DNA of 64,000 nucleotides from Ruminococcus sp. FC2018 (lineage in GTDB: Bacteria; Bacillota; Clostridia; Oscillospirales; Ruminococcaceae): the NCBI RefSeq assembly GCF_000621805.1, contig NZ_JHXH01000013.1:1-64000 (forward strand). Reading direction: 5' to 3'. Positions 8,954-43,372 of the stretch are shown one piece after another (position 1 is the first letter of the stretch; each line of letters starts with the position of its first letter). Position numbers and translations under genes: made by a program. The notes below the pieces were generated by a model. It worked only from the letters and a program-made list of their open reading frames with translations. It was not told where the DNA came from and did no database searches.

Positions 8954-9058
8954 ATTTTTCACCGACTGTTCTTTTTTCTTTTTGTTCCTGTGATAAATCG
9001 GAATTTGTATTAGCAGTGCTATGCCAAACTCCCATCGTCAAGCCGCAAGCAGCTTGAG

Positions 9059-9320
9059 GAAAACCGGTTTAAAGCTTTTCAAAGGGGCACGCCCTCTCTT
9101 GCAGGGCGTCCCCTCTTCCAAAACAGTCCACCGGACTGCTTTGGAATTCACCCCTTGCGGAGCGCACGCTGTATGGAGATTTCGCTGACTGCGGTCAGCG
9201 ACGAAGGCTCTGCCCTCGACCCGCCAGCCTTTTTTACGAGAAAGAAGGCTCCGAGAATGGCTTTGCCATTCTCTTGGGAGTAACCGTGGTAACGGTTACT
9301 CTGGGATCGAAAAACCTGTT
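9059..9320 (-). repeat. Hairpin-array repeat, copy 1
   Basis: A non-coding block made of successive short inverted repeats, matched by copy 2 near 43.1-43.4 kb in the same orientation. Stems: GGGG.ACGCCC/GGGCGT.CCC (9084-9113); CAGTCC/GGACTG inside CCAAA/TTTGG (9119-9144); CGCTGAC/GTCAGCG (9184-9201); GAGAATGGC/GCCATTCTC (9253-9273); GAGTAACCGT/ACGGTTACTC (9278-9301). A conserved single-stranded linker, ACGAGAAAGAAGGC, follows a T-run. It fills the 400-base gap upstream of proB, where no gene is visible. Strand is nominal: both copies lie between minus-strand genes. Confidence 0.8.
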
Positions 9321-9363
9321 TTGTCCTTGGCAGGTCCATATTGTCTTGTGTGACTTCCCCCGG

Positions 9364-10317
9364 TTATCCATTTACAACATTCTGCGGGTTTCCATTGATA
9401 TAACACTTTATGTTTTGTGCGACTGTTGAAAGCAGCCTTTCCCTTGTCTGCTTGGGTGCCCATGCAATATGCGGCGTTATAGTGCAGTTTTTGCAGCCCC
9501 TGAGCGCACAGCTCTCCTGCATAGGTTCAGCCGTCAGCACATCTATCCCAGCCCCTGCGATACGTCCGCAGTTAAGGGCATCGGCAAGGTCCTTTTCGTT
9601 GACTATTGCCCCCCTTGCGGTGTTCACAAGGTAGACGGACTTTTTCATTTTTGCGATAGTGTCTTTGTTTATAAGCTCCCTGGTCTGCTCCGTAAGAGGG
9701 CAGTGCAGGGTTATTACGTCCGATTGTTCAAGCAGCTCGTCAAGTGAGCAAGCCTGTGCGTTTTCGTCCACCCTTGCGGGAGTTCTTGTGCAGGCAAGCA
9801 CCTTCATGCCGAAGGCTTTTGCGATCACAGCAACTTTCTTTCCGATGTCCCCGTAGCCGATAATGCCCAGGGTCATGCCCTCAAGCTCAAAGGTGGGTAT
9901 GCCGAAATAGGAAAACAGCTTGTAGTTTACCCATGCTCCGTCGTCAACGGCATCGGAATACTCTCTTATCTTGTTGAAGTGGTTGAGGATAAGGGCAAAT
10001 GTGTGCTGTGCCACGGAGTTTGTGGAATATGCCGGCACGTTGCAAACTACTGCGCCGTGGCGGGTGGCAGCGTCTGTGTCAACGTTGTTGTAGCCTGTTG
10101 CAAATAGCCCCACATATTTAAGGTTGGGGCACTTTGAAAACACCTCTTCGGTGATGAGGCATTTGTTGCATATGACCCCGTCGGCATCGCCTATCTTGTC
10201 GGCTATCTCCTCGTTGGGAGTGAAGCCGTAAACGGTGCAGTCACCAAGGCTTGTTATACAGTCAAGGGAAACATCGTTTCGGGAGACCGTTTCGGAGTCA
10301 AGTATCACTATCTTCAT
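9364..10317 (-). CDS. D-isomer-specific 2-hydroxyacid dehydrogenase (glycerate dehydrogenase-like)
   Basis: NAD-dependent interconversion of a 2-oxoacid and a D-2-hydroxyacid. Most similar in pattern to hydroxypyruvate/glycerate dehydrogenases, but the substrate cannot be fixed by eye. The Rossmann motif is GIIGYGDIGKKVA, the conserved Arg is in LVNTARGAIVNE, the Glu in DVLTAEPM, and the catalytic His in ITPHIAWAP; 317 residues is the normal length. I chose the ATG of MKIVILD, which has GAGGA seven bases ahead and overlaps the end of the upstream membrane-protein gene by 20 bases, so the two are translationally coupled. The frame is open further upstream but that part duplicates the neighbour in another frame. 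Confidence 0.9.
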   Translation of the reverse strand: MKIVILDSETVSRNDVSLDCITSLGDCTVYGFTPNEEIADKIGDADGVICNKCLITEEVFSKCPNLKYVGLFATGYNNVDTDAATRHGAVVCNVPAYSTNSVAQHTFALILNHFNKIREYSDAVDDGAWVNYKLFSYFGIPTFELEGMTLGIIGYGDIGKKVAVIAKAFGMKVLACTRTPARVDENAQACSLDELLEQSDVITLHCPLTEQTRELINKDTIAKMKKSVYLVNTARGAIVNEKDLADALNCGRIAGAGIDVLTAEPMQESCALRGCKNCTITPHIAWAPKQTRERLLSTVAQNIKCYINGNPQNVVNG

Positions 10318-10864: not shown

Positions 10865-10907
10865 CACAGTTGAAAGATGTTTAAAAATACCAAAGGGAGT
10901 GCGTTTT

Positions 10908-11759
10908 ATGATAAGGATCTTTTCGGACAGCACCTGCGATCTGTCGGATGAGCTGCTGAGGCGTTACGGGATAACTTTGCTGCCACTTTATATTATTCTC
11001 GGGGAGAAACAGTACAAGGACAGGGTGAATATCACCCCACAGGACATTTTCAACTGGTCCGACCGACACAAGACTACCCCCAAGACCTCGGCGGCGTCCC
11101 TTGAGGACATAACCGAAAAAATAAAGCCCGTACTGGACAGGGGAGATGAGATCATTGTGTTCTCTATCTCACTTGAAATGTCCAACATGGGCAACGTTAT
11201 ACGTCTGGCGGCGCAGTCCCTTGAAGCTGAGGACAGGGTGCATTATATCGACTCACGTAACCTGTCCACAGGCATTGGTCACCTTGTTGTGGAAGCGGCT
11301 GTTATGGCGCAGCAGGGTATGAGTGCAGATGAGATCGTAAGGCGGATAAACGAGCTTATTCCCAGAGTGCGGGCAAGCTTTGTGGTGGATACCCTTACAT
11401 ATCTGCACAGAGGGGGTCGCTGCGGCGGACTTGCAGCCCTTGCAGGCAGCGTTTTGAAGCTGCACCCAAAGATACACGTTAAGGACGGCGTTATGGGAGC
11501 AGGGAAAAAGTACCGTGGCAGGTACAGCGATATAATAGTGAACTATGCAAAGGACATGGAGCAACAGCTGCTGAAAGCAAAGCCCGACAGGGTGTTTGTT
11601 ACACATTCCACCTGCGATAAGGAAGTGACCGCAAAGGTGTGCAGCTATCTTCAAGGGCTGGGGCACTTCAAAGAGGTGCTTGAGACCGAAGCAGGGGGCG
11701 TTGTATCCAGCCATTGCGGACCGGGCACTCTGGGAGTGCTGTACATTGAGGGAGAATAA
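10908..11759 (+). CDS. DegV family fatty-acid-binding protein
   Basis: DegV/FakB-type proteins bind a fatty acid and present it to a FakA kinase for incorporation into phospholipid; no FakA is in this window. The 283 residues have the expected length and motifs: IFSDSTCDLSDELLRRYGI at the N-terminus, KTSAASLEDI, the phosphate-binding region SISLEMSNM, and TLTYLHRGGRCGGLAAL; the end GPGTLGVLYIEG is typical. AAGGGAG lies eight bases before the ATG; a GTG three codons earlier overlaps the ribosome site and is unlikely. Single-gene unit with its own promoter and terminator. Confidence 0.93.
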   Translation: MIRIFSDSTCDLSDELLRRYGITLLPLYIILGEKQYKDRVNITPQDIFNWSDRHKTTPKTSAASLEDITEKIKPVLDRGDEIIVFSISLEMSNMGNVIRLAAQSLEAEDRVHYIDSRNLSTGIGHLVVEAAVMAQQGMSADEIVRRINELIPRVRASFVVDTLTYLHRGGRCGGLAALAGSVLKLHPKIHVKDGVMGAGKKYRGRYSDIIVNYAKDMEQQLLKAKPDRVFVTHSTCDKEVTAKVCSYLQGLGHFKEVLETEAGGVVSSHCGPGTLGVLYIEGE

Positions 11760-11826
11760 GGGATAAATATATCTGCGCTGCGGACTCCGACTCTAACGGA
11801 GAAACCCGGCTCAAAGCTGTTCACAG

Positions 11827-11861
11827 GGGCACGCCTTCTCTTGCAGGGCGTGTCTTTTTTT
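11827..11861 (+). terminator. Terminator of the DegV gene
   Basis: GGCACGCC/GGGCGTGTC stem followed by seven T residues. The 50 bases ending here match the first hairpin module of the hairpin-array repeat (shared loop TCTCTTGCA), so this is either a truncated repeat or the terminator from which that repeat module derives. Confidence 0.85.
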
Positions 11862-11901
11862 GTTTAGTTCAGTCACCTTGCATGGCAGCTGGAGAAAATC
11901 A

Positions 11902-13494
11902 TTAAGAGTTTTCGCACGGTGCCATTGTTGACATTATCTGCAATGCCACTCGCAGACCGTCAACGGCGGCGGACATAATGCCTCCTGCGTAGCCTGCTCC
12001 TTCGCCGCAGGGGTAGAGGTTATCCACTCCCGGGGCGGTCAGACTTTCGTTCCTTGTAATTCGCACAGGTGAGCTGGTGCGTGTTTCGGGGGCGGTAAGA
12101 ACGGCATTTTCGTCGCCAAAGCAAGCCATTTTCCTTGAAAACTGCTCCAGCCCCAGCTTCATCATTCGTGAGACGCTCTCGGGGTAAAGCTTTGATATGT
12201 CACAGGCAACGATACCTCGGCTGTAAGTGGGCACAATGTTTGTGTCAAGGTCGGGCTTGCCGCTTAAAAAGCCCCGGACGGTGGTGGCGGGAGCCTTGTA
12301 GCTGCCTGTGGCACGAAATGCCGCCTGCTCAATGCTTTTTGCAAATACGACCCCGTCAAGAGGGTCGTTTCCGAAGTCCTGTGGAGTTACGCCCACAACA
12401 AGAGCTGCGTTGGCGTTTTCTCCGTCACGGGCAAACTCGCTCATTCCGTTGGTGACCACGCCGCCCCTTTCCGAAGCCGCAGGCACCACCGTTCCCCCGG
12501 GGCACATACAGAACGTGTAAACGCCCCGCCCGTTTTCACGGAAGCTGAGCTGGTATTCTCCCCTGGGGAGCACATCGCTGCCTGCAAGGTCGCCGTAAAG
12601 ACTTTTTTCCACGTCCTTTTGCAGGTGCTCTATCCTTGCCCCCACAGAAAAAGCCTTGGGCTGCATGAATATCCCTTTTCGTGCAAGCATCTCAAAGGTA
12701 TCTCTTGCGCTGTGTCCAAGAGCAAGCACAAGGGCGGCGGTCTGTTCGGTTGATCTTGTGGTGGTAATGCGTTGTGCTTTTGCATTTGCAATGGTGATGT
12801 CCTCCAGCCTTTCGCAGAAGCGGATCTCTCCTCCCAGGCTTATGATACGCTCTCTGATATTTTTCACCACCAGGCGTAGCTTGTCGGTGCCTATGTGGGG
12901 CTTTGCCCTGGTGCATATTTCCTCAGGCGCACCAAGCTGTACAAGCTTTTCAAGGACATAGCGGCAAAGGGGATCGTTTATCCTTGTGGTGAGCTTTCCG
13001 TCGGAGAAAGTACCTGCGCCGCCTTCGCCGAACTGAACGTTGGACTGCTCATCAAGCTCTCCCCCTGTCCAGAAGCTTTTGACTGTCTTTGTTCGCTGCT
13101 CCACTCTTTCGCCCCGCTCGATCACCAGCGGTTTGTAGCCTTGCTCGGCAAGGGCAAGGGCGCAGAACATTCCCGCAGGTCCGAAGCCGGTGATGACCAC
13201 TCTGCCCTGTACTTTATTGGTGGATATAACAGGCTTGAGTTCGCTTGCCGCCACAGGTGAAAAGTCCTTGTTCCTGCGGCAGAGGGAGCGTTCCAGCTTT
13301 TCGTCGTCAAGGCATACATAGACCGAGTAGACATAGTGTATCTCCTTGCGTTTTCTTGCGTCCAGAGAGACCTTGTGTATACTGCTTTGAGCCACCTTGT
13401 CCCTGTGGCTGCCAAGACGCTGCAAGGCACGCCGGAGCACTTTATCCTCTGTTTCGTCCAAGGCAGCGTTAATGCTGTTTATGATAAAAGGCAC
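11902..13494 (-). CDS. Uncharacterised FAD-dependent dehydrogenase (COG2509-like)
   Basis: 530-residue flavoprotein. After an N-terminal 100-residue domain comes the FAD-binding GxGxxG motif (VVITGFGPAGMFCALALAEQG), then QFGEGGAGTFSDGKL and the C-terminal FAD site LYPCGEGAGYAGGIMSAAVDG. This pattern fits the large uncharacterised FAD-dependent dehydrogenase family related to HI0933-like flavoproteins. The physiological substrate is unknown. The start is GTG with AAGGAGG seven bases ahead. Terminators separate it from neighbours on both sides, so it is probably transcribed alone or weakly from cdaR. Confidence 0.85.
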   Translation of the reverse strand: MPFIINSINAALDETEDKVLRRALQRLGSHRDKVAQSSIHKVSLDARKRKEIHYVYSVYVCLDDEKLERSLCRRNKDFSPVAASELKPVISTNKVQGRVVITGFGPAGMFCALALAEQGYKPLVIERGERVEQRTKTVKSFWTGGELDEQSNVQFGEGGAGTFSDGKLTTRINDPLCRYVLEKLVQLGAPEEICTRAKPHIGTDKLRLVVKNIRERIISLGGEIRFCERLEDITIANAKAQRITTTRSTEQTAALVLALGHSARDTFEMLARKGIFMQPKAFSVGARIEHLQKDVEKSLYGDLAGSDVLPRGEYQLSFRENGRGVYTFCMCPGGTVVPAASERGGVVTNGMSEFARDGENANAALVVGVTPQDFGNDPLDGVVFAKSIEQAAFRATGSYKAPATTVRGFLSGKPDLDTNIVPTYSRGIVACDISKLYPESVSRMMKLGLEQFSRKMACFGDENAVLTAPETRTSSPVRITRNESLTAPGVDNLYPCGEGAGYAGGIMSAAVDGLRVALQIMSTMAPCENS

Positions 13495-23120: not shown

Positions 23121-23291
23121 ATAAAAAGAAAAAACCGTCACACCTCGTTTCCCTCGGTGCAACGATTTTTCCTTTATCGAGGTGACGGGACGTTGAACGT
23201 GGTTTCAAGTCTGCGTTTCGATAAAAAGAAAAAACCGTCACACCTCGTTTTCCTCGGTGGAACGATTTTTCCTTTATCGAGGTGACGGGAC
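23121..23291. repeat. Tandem 100-bp duplication including a tRNA-Pro 3' fragment
   Basis: Bases 23121-23191 recur exactly 100 bases later at 23221-23291 with two mismatches. The repeated piece holds the sequence downstream of tRNA-Pro (an RNA terminator with a run GGTTTTTTCTTTTT on the minus strand) and the last part of the tRNA acceptor/T arm. The left copy then degenerates, with only fragments such as TTGAAC and TCTGCGT still recognisable. It looks like a remnant of insertion at the tRNA 3' end or of a local duplication. Confidence 0.85.
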
Positions 23292-23350
23292 TTGAACCCA
23301 CGACCTCTGCGTCCCGAACGCAGCGCTCTACCAAACTGAGCCACACCTCG
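23277..23350 (-). tRNA. tRNA-Pro (anticodon CGG)
   Basis: The cloverleaf reads on the minus strand: acceptor CGAGGTG/CACCTCG (7 bp), D arm with CTCAGTTTGGTAGAGC, anticodon stem CTGCG/CGCAG with loop TTCGGGA (anticodon CGG, decoding CCG), and T arm GTGGGTTCAAGTCCCG. The discriminator base is A, and CCA is not encoded. No neighbouring tRNAs are seen. Confidence 0.95.
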
Positions 23351-43028: not shown

Positions 43029-43081
43029 TGTGTCACCGTCCTTTTTATCTCTGAATTGATTGTCAAGCCCTTAGGGCTTGA

Positions 43082-43366
43082 GGGAAAAACATCAGGTCTT
43101 TTCATAAGGGCAGCCCTCTCTTGCAGGGCATGCCCTCTTTTAAAACAGTCCACCGGACTGTTTTCGAGCGAACAGCTTGCTGTTCGGTTGTTCACGTCTA
43201 TGCGGAGCGCCTGCGGCACGGGAGCGTTTCGCTGTCTGCGGACAGCGACAAGGGCGCTGCCCTTGACCCGCCACCTTTTTTTACGAGAAAGAAGGCAGAG
43301 AATGGCATAGCCATTCTCTAAAGTAACCGTGGTAACGGTTACTTTGGGACAGAAAAAACCTGTTAT
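43082..43366 (-). repeat. Hairpin-array repeat, copy 2, inside the V-ATPase operon
   Basis: Same order of stems as copy 1: GGGCA.../...TGCCC (43108-43135), AAAACAGTCC/GGACTGTTTT (43142-43164), CGCTGTC/GACAGCG (43230-43247), GAGAATGGC/GCCATTCTC (43298-43318), AAGTAACCGT/ACGGTTACTT (43321-43344). An extra hairpin CGAACAGC/GCTGTTCG (43169-43186) has no match in copy 1. Between ntpB and ntpD, so it would be in the operon mRNA. A further palindrome CAAGCCCTTAGGGCTTG (43062-43078) flanks it. No gene is visible in this gap. Confidence 0.8.
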
Positions 43367-43372
43367 TATTAG

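Follow-up and report, generated by a model that had tools for sequence, protein, structure and literature searches.

A dispersed mosaic repeat of covarying hairpins in Ruminococcus and some of its relatives

The short mosaic palindromic repeat is a well-known kind of element. BOX of Streptococcus pneumoniae, as the excerpts of PMC3049150 describe it, is a short interspersed composite of modules, boxA-boxB(n)-boxC, with stem-loops predicted if it is transcribed. The Ruminococcus repeat analyzed here is alike in being a short interspersed composite; by description, however, it is made of six to eight different hairpin modules, and the shell of inverted ends found here is common to several cargo types. 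The repeats of the BOX paper (PMC3049150, as excerpted) are over-represented between convergent genes, which is only weakly so for the Ruminococcus repeat, and the word "compensatory" is absent from that paper's main text. BIME/REP elements are palindrome mosaics with copies in operon spacers too. Unlike REP elements with their RAYT, the Ruminococcus repeat shows no co-distribution with Y1 transposases, and its units are much longer. REP elements carry a GTAG signature. The terminal inverted repeats of MITEs, as defined in the excerpts of PMC3049150, have a counterpart (TAAATCAGAATTTA) in a shell-bearing subset of copies only; MITEs are described there as AT-rich, whereas the core of the Ruminococcus repeat is G+C-rich (0.58-0.60). 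The repeat is also unlike a MITE in that many copies lack the shell and no DDE_3 transposase lies above cut-off in the genus set. In rRNA hairpins altered by template switching (PMC8794818, as excerpted), double stem changes without visible intermediates and rare loop inversion resemble what we report; those hairpins were compared over phylogenies, whereas here a multi-copy repeat holds a stem in many versions (16 for the hairpin H4). What is distinctive here is the number of distinct covarying hairpins, the freedom of some stems beside loops that stay fixed, and how seldom wobble pairs occur.

The window, a stretch of 64,000 nucleotides of Ruminococcus sp. FC2018 (contig NZ_JHXH01000013.1, positions 1 to 64,000), had received a first-pass annotation that described two copies of a hairpin array with a common order of stems and a linker, and that placed the first at 9059-9320. 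Both copies were confirmed. The first is real, by DNA search and by covariance model, and has 8 other near-full copies in the genome; its span is 9038-9330 (+), so that the annotated start was about 20 nt short and the end is near 9330. The repeat is about 225 nt long and dispersed, with six hairpins in fixed order. The consensus on the + strand opens with H1 (TCAAGCC/GGCTTGA; the stem differs in other copies, e.g., ATCCGCC/GGCGGAT), a variable spacer, H2 (loop CTCTTGC) and H3, whose loop is ACC or close to it. The middle is formed by a linker that contains TTCACC and GCGGAGCGC, then a variable stretch, H4 with the loop TGCG, and H5, and the right part consists of the linker ACCCGC, H6 and the right end GAAAAACCTGT, followed by TATTATT in many copies. 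Both window copies carry two extra hairpins, H7 and H8, before the right end; this genome also has a second family of hairpin arrays, to which these two belong as well.

All features of copy 1 are given on the + strand. H1 (TCAAGC/GCTTGA, 9038-9057) lies outside the span first annotated. It is followed by H2 (loop CTCTTGC, 9084-9113), H3 (TTCCAAAACAGTCC/GGACTGCTTTGGAA, 93% complementary, 9116-9146), the conserved linker with its TTCACC and GCGGAGCGC (9147-9170), H4 (TCGCTGAC/GTCAGCGA, loop TGCG, 9182-9201), H5 (9202-9218), H6 (AGCCTTTTTT/AAAGAAGGCT, 90% complementary, 9226-9250), H7 (GAGAATGGC/GCCATTCTC, 9253-9273), H8 (GAGTAACCGT/ACGGTTACTC, 9278-9301) and the right-end motif GAAAAACCTGT (9309-9319). 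Imperfections in this copy are an A-C mismatch in H5, a one-base bulge in H2 and an unpaired position in H1. Left of the copy, at 8994-9007 (+), lies TAAATCGGAATTTG, a degenerate remnant with 2 differences from the inverted-end sequence TAAATCAGAATTTA; no right partner for it was seen.

Copy 2 (43063-43370, +) lies in the spacer that separates the genes of V-type ATPase subunits B and D and is antisense to both. H2 is at 43107-43136, H3 at 43142-43164, H4 (TCGCTGTC/GACAGCGA) at 43229-43248, H5 at 43249-43265, H7 at 43297-43319, H8 (AAAGTAACCGT/ACGGTTACTTT) at 43320-43345 and the right-end motif AAAAAACCTGTTATTATT at 43353-43370, all on the + strand; H6 is imperfect. An additional hairpin, CGAACAGC/GCTGTTCG, follows H3 at 43169-43186 (+) and is not in the orthologous copy of genome G004. 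The two stem changes quoted in the annotation are both present: CGCTGAC/GTCAGCG in copy 1 (9183-9189, 9194-9200) compared to CGCTGTC/GACAGCG in copy 2 (43230-43236, 43241-43247), and GAGTAACCGT/ACGGTTACTC (9278-9287, 9292-9301) compared to AAGTAACCGT/ACGGTTACTT (43321-43330, 43335-43344). Folding was not at chance level; its z-score was -6.78 for the + strand and -7.02 for the - strand.

Used as the query in a DNA search of the genome, 9059-9320 returned 20 matches, 9 near-full and 11 shorter. The 9 near-full copies rule out a single duplicated spacer, and the annotation was right that this is not simply such a spacer; it is a dispersed mosaic repeat. A covariance model (R1) built from 33 copies, neither window copy included, found both window copies with rough E-values of 5.5e-42 and 4.6e-27. 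The search of the genome and its relatives with such a model, as the annotation had proposed, finds many further copies: 11 matches in the genome itself (9 where fewer candidates were scored), and matches in 29 genomes, FC2018 among them, of the 61 in the relatives set, or 7 of 33 genera. Over the class, 12 of 245 genomes had matches, own included, 7 of the 12 with a best E-value above 1e-7 that may be chance or distant likeness. Matches in genomes such as G005, G017 and G022 were weak (E 1e-9 to 1e-3), and those that were read share mainly H5 and H6. By a scan for the exact core (at least 118 stretches), the named carriers are mostly uncultured rumen or gut Ruminococcus, plus R. flavefaciens XPD3002 and YL228. 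Exact cores were also seen at 3 places (L115, L143, L153) of a metagenome-assembled scaffold titled Alistipes sp. (JAMPAJ010000001.1), which points either to wrong labelling of the genome or to transfer from one phylum to another. Several metagenome-assembled contigs start or end within the repeat (L073, L080, L085, L105, L119 and others), so assembled copy numbers are likely underestimates. Two copies, L040 (G012:C46) and L025 (G006:C48), have a partial tandem duplication of the array within one copy.

Rfam 15 has no family for the repeat; two matches on 8980-9400 were both far below gathering score, and the sole match at gathering score within the window was a tRNA gene at 23277-23350 (-). 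No plasmid match was found, and a phage origin was set aside, the one partial match (79%, covering 36% of the query) being to a faecal phage record that lacks annotation. No exact match to the 29-base core was present in viral contigs. Among open-licence papers, no description of the repeat in Ruminococcus, Faecalibacterium, Firmicutes or Clostridia was found.

Copies for the covariation analysis were collected by sequence profile with a seed that required a paired H1, so pairing in H2-H6 was not favored; 93 of the 197 unique matches held the whole core. In alignment A1 (33 of the 37 representatives picked at an identity of 93%), 95.1% of 1644 cells were paired compared to 85.6% in shuffles, both sides had changed in 25 of 50 stem pairs compared to 12.9, and 147 cells were double-changed compared to 38.5. 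In 500 shuffles, none of the three observed values was attained. Relatedness alone can beat such shuffles without structure; a control that keeps relatedness, with partners slid 1-3 columns, gave 4-17 double-changed cells. RNAalifold, given no structure, predicted 44 pairs in the same five helices, 22 of them with double changes. Double changes were mostly from one Watson-Crick pair to another. Across copies, the loops of H2 and H4 and several linkers were more conserved than the variable stem positions. Non-compensatory stem changes in further copies were looked for. The divergent copies of A1 remained paired to the extent given above, and 92.7-98.5% of cells, by helix, were Watson-Crick among the 197 unique matches, although some uncompensated changes occur (in A1, 14 G-T, 39 A-C and 41 other cells among 1644). 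The annotation's claim of compensatory changes stands in these copies, far above the controls.

Wobble pairs were rare. Summed over helices in the 197 unique matches, there were 45 G-T and 97 A-C cells in the element's orientation; the p value of 1.5e-5 for this difference assumes independent cells, which these are not. A scan of H4 in 118 contexts, anchored on the loop and filtered at 5 of 8 positions paired, gave 940 Watson-Crick, 1 G-T, 2 A-C and 1 other among 944 cells; the H4 stem occurred there in 16 versions, 12 of them fully complementary. As a small control, 147 stem pairs of 7 tRNAs in the loci examined were 130 Watson-Crick, 17 G-T and 0 A-C. For copies between co-directional genes, G-U and A-C were equal on the transcribed strand, 32 to 32 (+ strand counts of 18 G-T and 28 A-C for antisense copies, 4 and 14 for sense copies). 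Constraint on the transcript alone should favor G-U, yet G-U was not above A-C. An A-C cell on one strand reads as G-T on the opposite one, so the constraint does not look plainly symmetric between strands. The A-C excess could reflect a mutational bias or a certain tolerance of wobble on the - strand; read on the - strand, wobble still amounted to only 39 of the 1644 cells in A1. The annotation had taken the double changes to imply selection on a folded RNA or DNA structure. That they alone point to selection on RNA is left unsupported by the rarity of G-U, the 32 to 32 balance and one inverted hairpin core, described next, which make the copying of one arm from the other at the DNA level a serious alternative.

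Copies at the same site in different species were compared in six pairs, two of which share one locus and genome, so that the six are not independent and represent few loci. Of the 333 stem pairs, 324 had not changed, 5 had double Watson-Crick changes and 4 differed on one side only (9 further cells were gapped); pairing is largely kept in these copies, which supports the annotation. Stem bases changed at 14 of 666 positions compared to 41 of 632 unpaired bases (Fisher p 9e-5), with part of the 41 coming from one H6 inversion and with a fast-changing stretch included in the unpaired part. Pairing thus seems to be retained, as well as rewritten, in orthologous copies. A whole-spacer RNAfold count (5 double Watson-Crick, 1 other double, 49 one-sided) was based on the pairs as folded, flanks included, instead of on the six hairpins, and took L037/L042 in place of L026/L042; the count over the hairpins superseded it. 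In L009, in the FC2018 genome, the H6 core exactly matches the reverse complement of the H6 core of the ortholog L060, a footprint of either template switching or inversion, and the pair L190/L195 has two double changes within H6. The excerpts of PMC8794818 attribute instant compensatory changes and loop inversions in rRNA hairpins to template switching, and the H6 inversion and the multiple double changes in one H6 match the footprints described there. Loop inversion, the clearest sign of template switching, was rejected as a general mark, with L009 H6 as the one real case and other "inverted" matches judged off target by eye; no inverted H2, H3 or H4 loop was found where the forward loop was recognized (153, 156 and 131 of 166 copies). 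Much of the coupling between arms may come from template switching at DNA hairpins. Such switching plausibly makes the double changes, while the slower stems and conserved loops point to selection too.

Copies were placed between open reading frames with the element masked, so that frames could not span it. The 124 copies so placed lay between co-directional genes (48 antisense, 27 sense), convergent genes (30) or divergent genes (19); for spacers without a copy, in loci of at least 7 kb, the numbers in these three arrangements were 183, 46 and 55. The antisense excess (p 0.02), convergent excess (p 0.07) and divergent deficit (p 0.40) have overstated significance, since copies are partly related. 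Long open frames flanked 19 of 135 copies on both sides, and some of these are known operon spacers. The V-type ATPase B-D spacer was compared in nine close genomes, its content assigned by eye: the repeat was antisense in FC2018 and G004 and sense in G010 and G009, second-family arrays were present in G008, G012 and G020, a different simple repeat in G016, and in G006 the spacer was 46 nt with no repeat. The B gene ended in FQ-stop in the four repeat-carrying genomes and in FGE-stop in the five close genomes without it (loci L189/L005, L190 and L191-L197), by either common descent or an effect of insertion. Opposite orientations were found at three orthologous spacers. The flipped copies were not each other's nearest relatives, which makes independent insertions likelier than an in-place flip; by a hand estimate (about 10 sampled copies per genome, about 10 genomes, an assumed 1500 spacers), about 3 shared spacers are expected by chance.

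Modules were gained, lost or exchanged between copies. The repeat was found both inside and outside the shell with inverted ends TAAATCAGAATTTA, and shell-less copies end near CCTGTTATTATT. A shorter pattern found 6 shell pairs, all flanked by T and A that may belong to the repeat ends rather than to a target duplication. In the FC2018 genome 11 shell pairs of 366-581 bp were inspected, from a pattern already containing the flanking T/A, and two hold this repeat. One of the 11 units, L257 (G000:C2:11863-12445, 581 bp), has the same inverted ends around a 191-codon open frame instead of an array, and a 174-aa part of the frame had no match in Pfam; the ten other shell units held no protein-sized frame. 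The second family of dispersed hairpin arrays was seen in the same genome at L010, L011 and L013-L020 and in shell units L253-L256 and L258-L261; many of its arrays have the same inverted ends, and its hairpins are by eye also double-changed, with one uncompensated case (L014). Array or shell sequence of differing content also lay upstream of one gene, putatively hydrolase-like by a motif, in five genomes (L301, L302, L304, L305, L307); the shell end adjoins the gene in at least three of the five, and two are cut by contig ends. In the genus set, Y1 transposases turned up in 8 of the 15 genomes with the element and in 8 of the 14 without it, a lack of co-distribution on which Y1/RAYT was rejected as the mobilizer, and DDE_3 (IS630-type) transposases reached cut-off in 0 of 29 genus-set genomes, with two weak matches below it; neither of these two transposase families yielded a mobilizer. 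An autonomous parent was sought by eye as paired inverted ends at 1-2 kb among the listed positions (FC2018 with at most 1 mismatch, five genomes exact), and none was seen. No clean empty site with a target duplication was obtained.

A truncated copy, made of the H1-H2 spacer and H2 and followed by a T7 tail, lies at 11801-11857 (+), downstream of the DegV-family gene at 10899-11759. It matched query positions 1-51 at 88% in the DNA search and coincided with a weak model match (11826-11904, E 0.001). It was the one terminator-like site in 11700-11920, compared to 0.2 expected by shuffle. The annotation had called it a truncated first module forming the DegV terminator; a terminator fits the sequence, but the hairpin is the second module, H2. 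No intrinsic terminator (G+C-rich stem then T run) was found in copy 1, and copy 2 had 1 terminator-like site compared to 0.6 expected. Judged by this pattern, full copies are poor intrinsic terminators, and their position inside an operon argues against full transcription stops. A lone H2 hairpin with a T tail could act as a terminator.

The repeat is multi-copy and a modular mosaic, with covarying stems, some strongly conserved loops and same-site copies across species. In Ruminococcus and some relatives, we think, it is probably a mosaic repeat of the BOX/BIME/MITE kind, dispersed and non-autonomous. Each copy is a string of six to eight near-perfect palindromes with partly conserved linkers, beside genes in either orientation. 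The arms would stay complementary through a DNA hairpin that lets one arm template the other during replication, and selection, for mobility of the family or for a fold in the spacer, would remove changes that break pairing. Between genes that are transcribed together, a copy should give the transcript a row of hairpins, which would modulate stability or read-through rather than stop transcription. BIME, ERIC and Correia elements are reported, in the background given by the excerpts of PMC3049150 and, for the effects of BIME and ERIC, also PMC2229807, to affect decay or read-through, and by likeness to them the hairpin row may do so here.

It is unlikely, in our judgment, that the repeat is instead a structured RNA under selection, in which stems covary since the transcript must fold and conserved loops bind protein or RNA. 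The strong covariation, the conserved H2 and H4 loops and linkers, the slower stems of orthologous copies and the copies within an operon spacer in several species would all suit such an RNA, as would the wobble excess on the - strand (the 97 A-C over 45 G-T), the strand that is oftener transcribed where copies lie between co-directional genes (48 antisense to 27 sense). However, G-U is rare and in transcribed orientation no higher than A-C, unlike in the seven tRNAs (17 to 0), copies occur in every gene arrangement, including 19 of 124 between divergent genes, and both orientations occur at the same spacer. Quite unlikely is an account of functionless palindromes whose arms agree only because they are constantly rewritten, by recombination among copies and by template switching. 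It is consistent with double changes that show hardly any wobble or mismatch intermediates, with the exactly inverted H6 core of one ortholog pair and with the compensatory changes and loop inversions of rRNA (PMC8794818, as excerpted), but neutral template switching alone would not slow stems relative to unpaired bases, which is what copies in place show. Conservation of the H2 and H4 loops and of several linkers, moreover, exceeds that of the variable stem positions, and the H2, H3 and H4 loops were not seen inverted where the forward loop was recognized.

That the array works as folded DNA, its conserved loops and linkers read by a replication- or transposition-linked factor in whichever direction transcription runs while its stems drift by arm-to-arm templating, seems to us improbable; if true, this would be a mobile family whose compensatory evolution stems from its own DNA folding. 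That the repeat is a terminator or attenuator cassette, spread for its ability to end transcription, is very improbable. The truncated copy at 11.8 kb with its T7 tail scores as terminator-like, and convergent spacers hold 30 of 124 copies compared to 46 of 284 spacers without a copy (p 0.07); against this, copy 1 has no terminator-like site, copy 2 has about as many as expected (one to 0.6), and copies sit inside the V-type ATPase operon.

Functional RNAs are usually proved by their covariation. Here, hundreds of model matches combine strong covariation with rare wobble pairs, and the direction of transcription does not show in them. The family can therefore serve to set DNA template switching against RNA selection as the source of covariation, in a repeat with no Rfam family that occupies operon spacers of gut and rumen Ruminococcus and some of their assembly contig ends.
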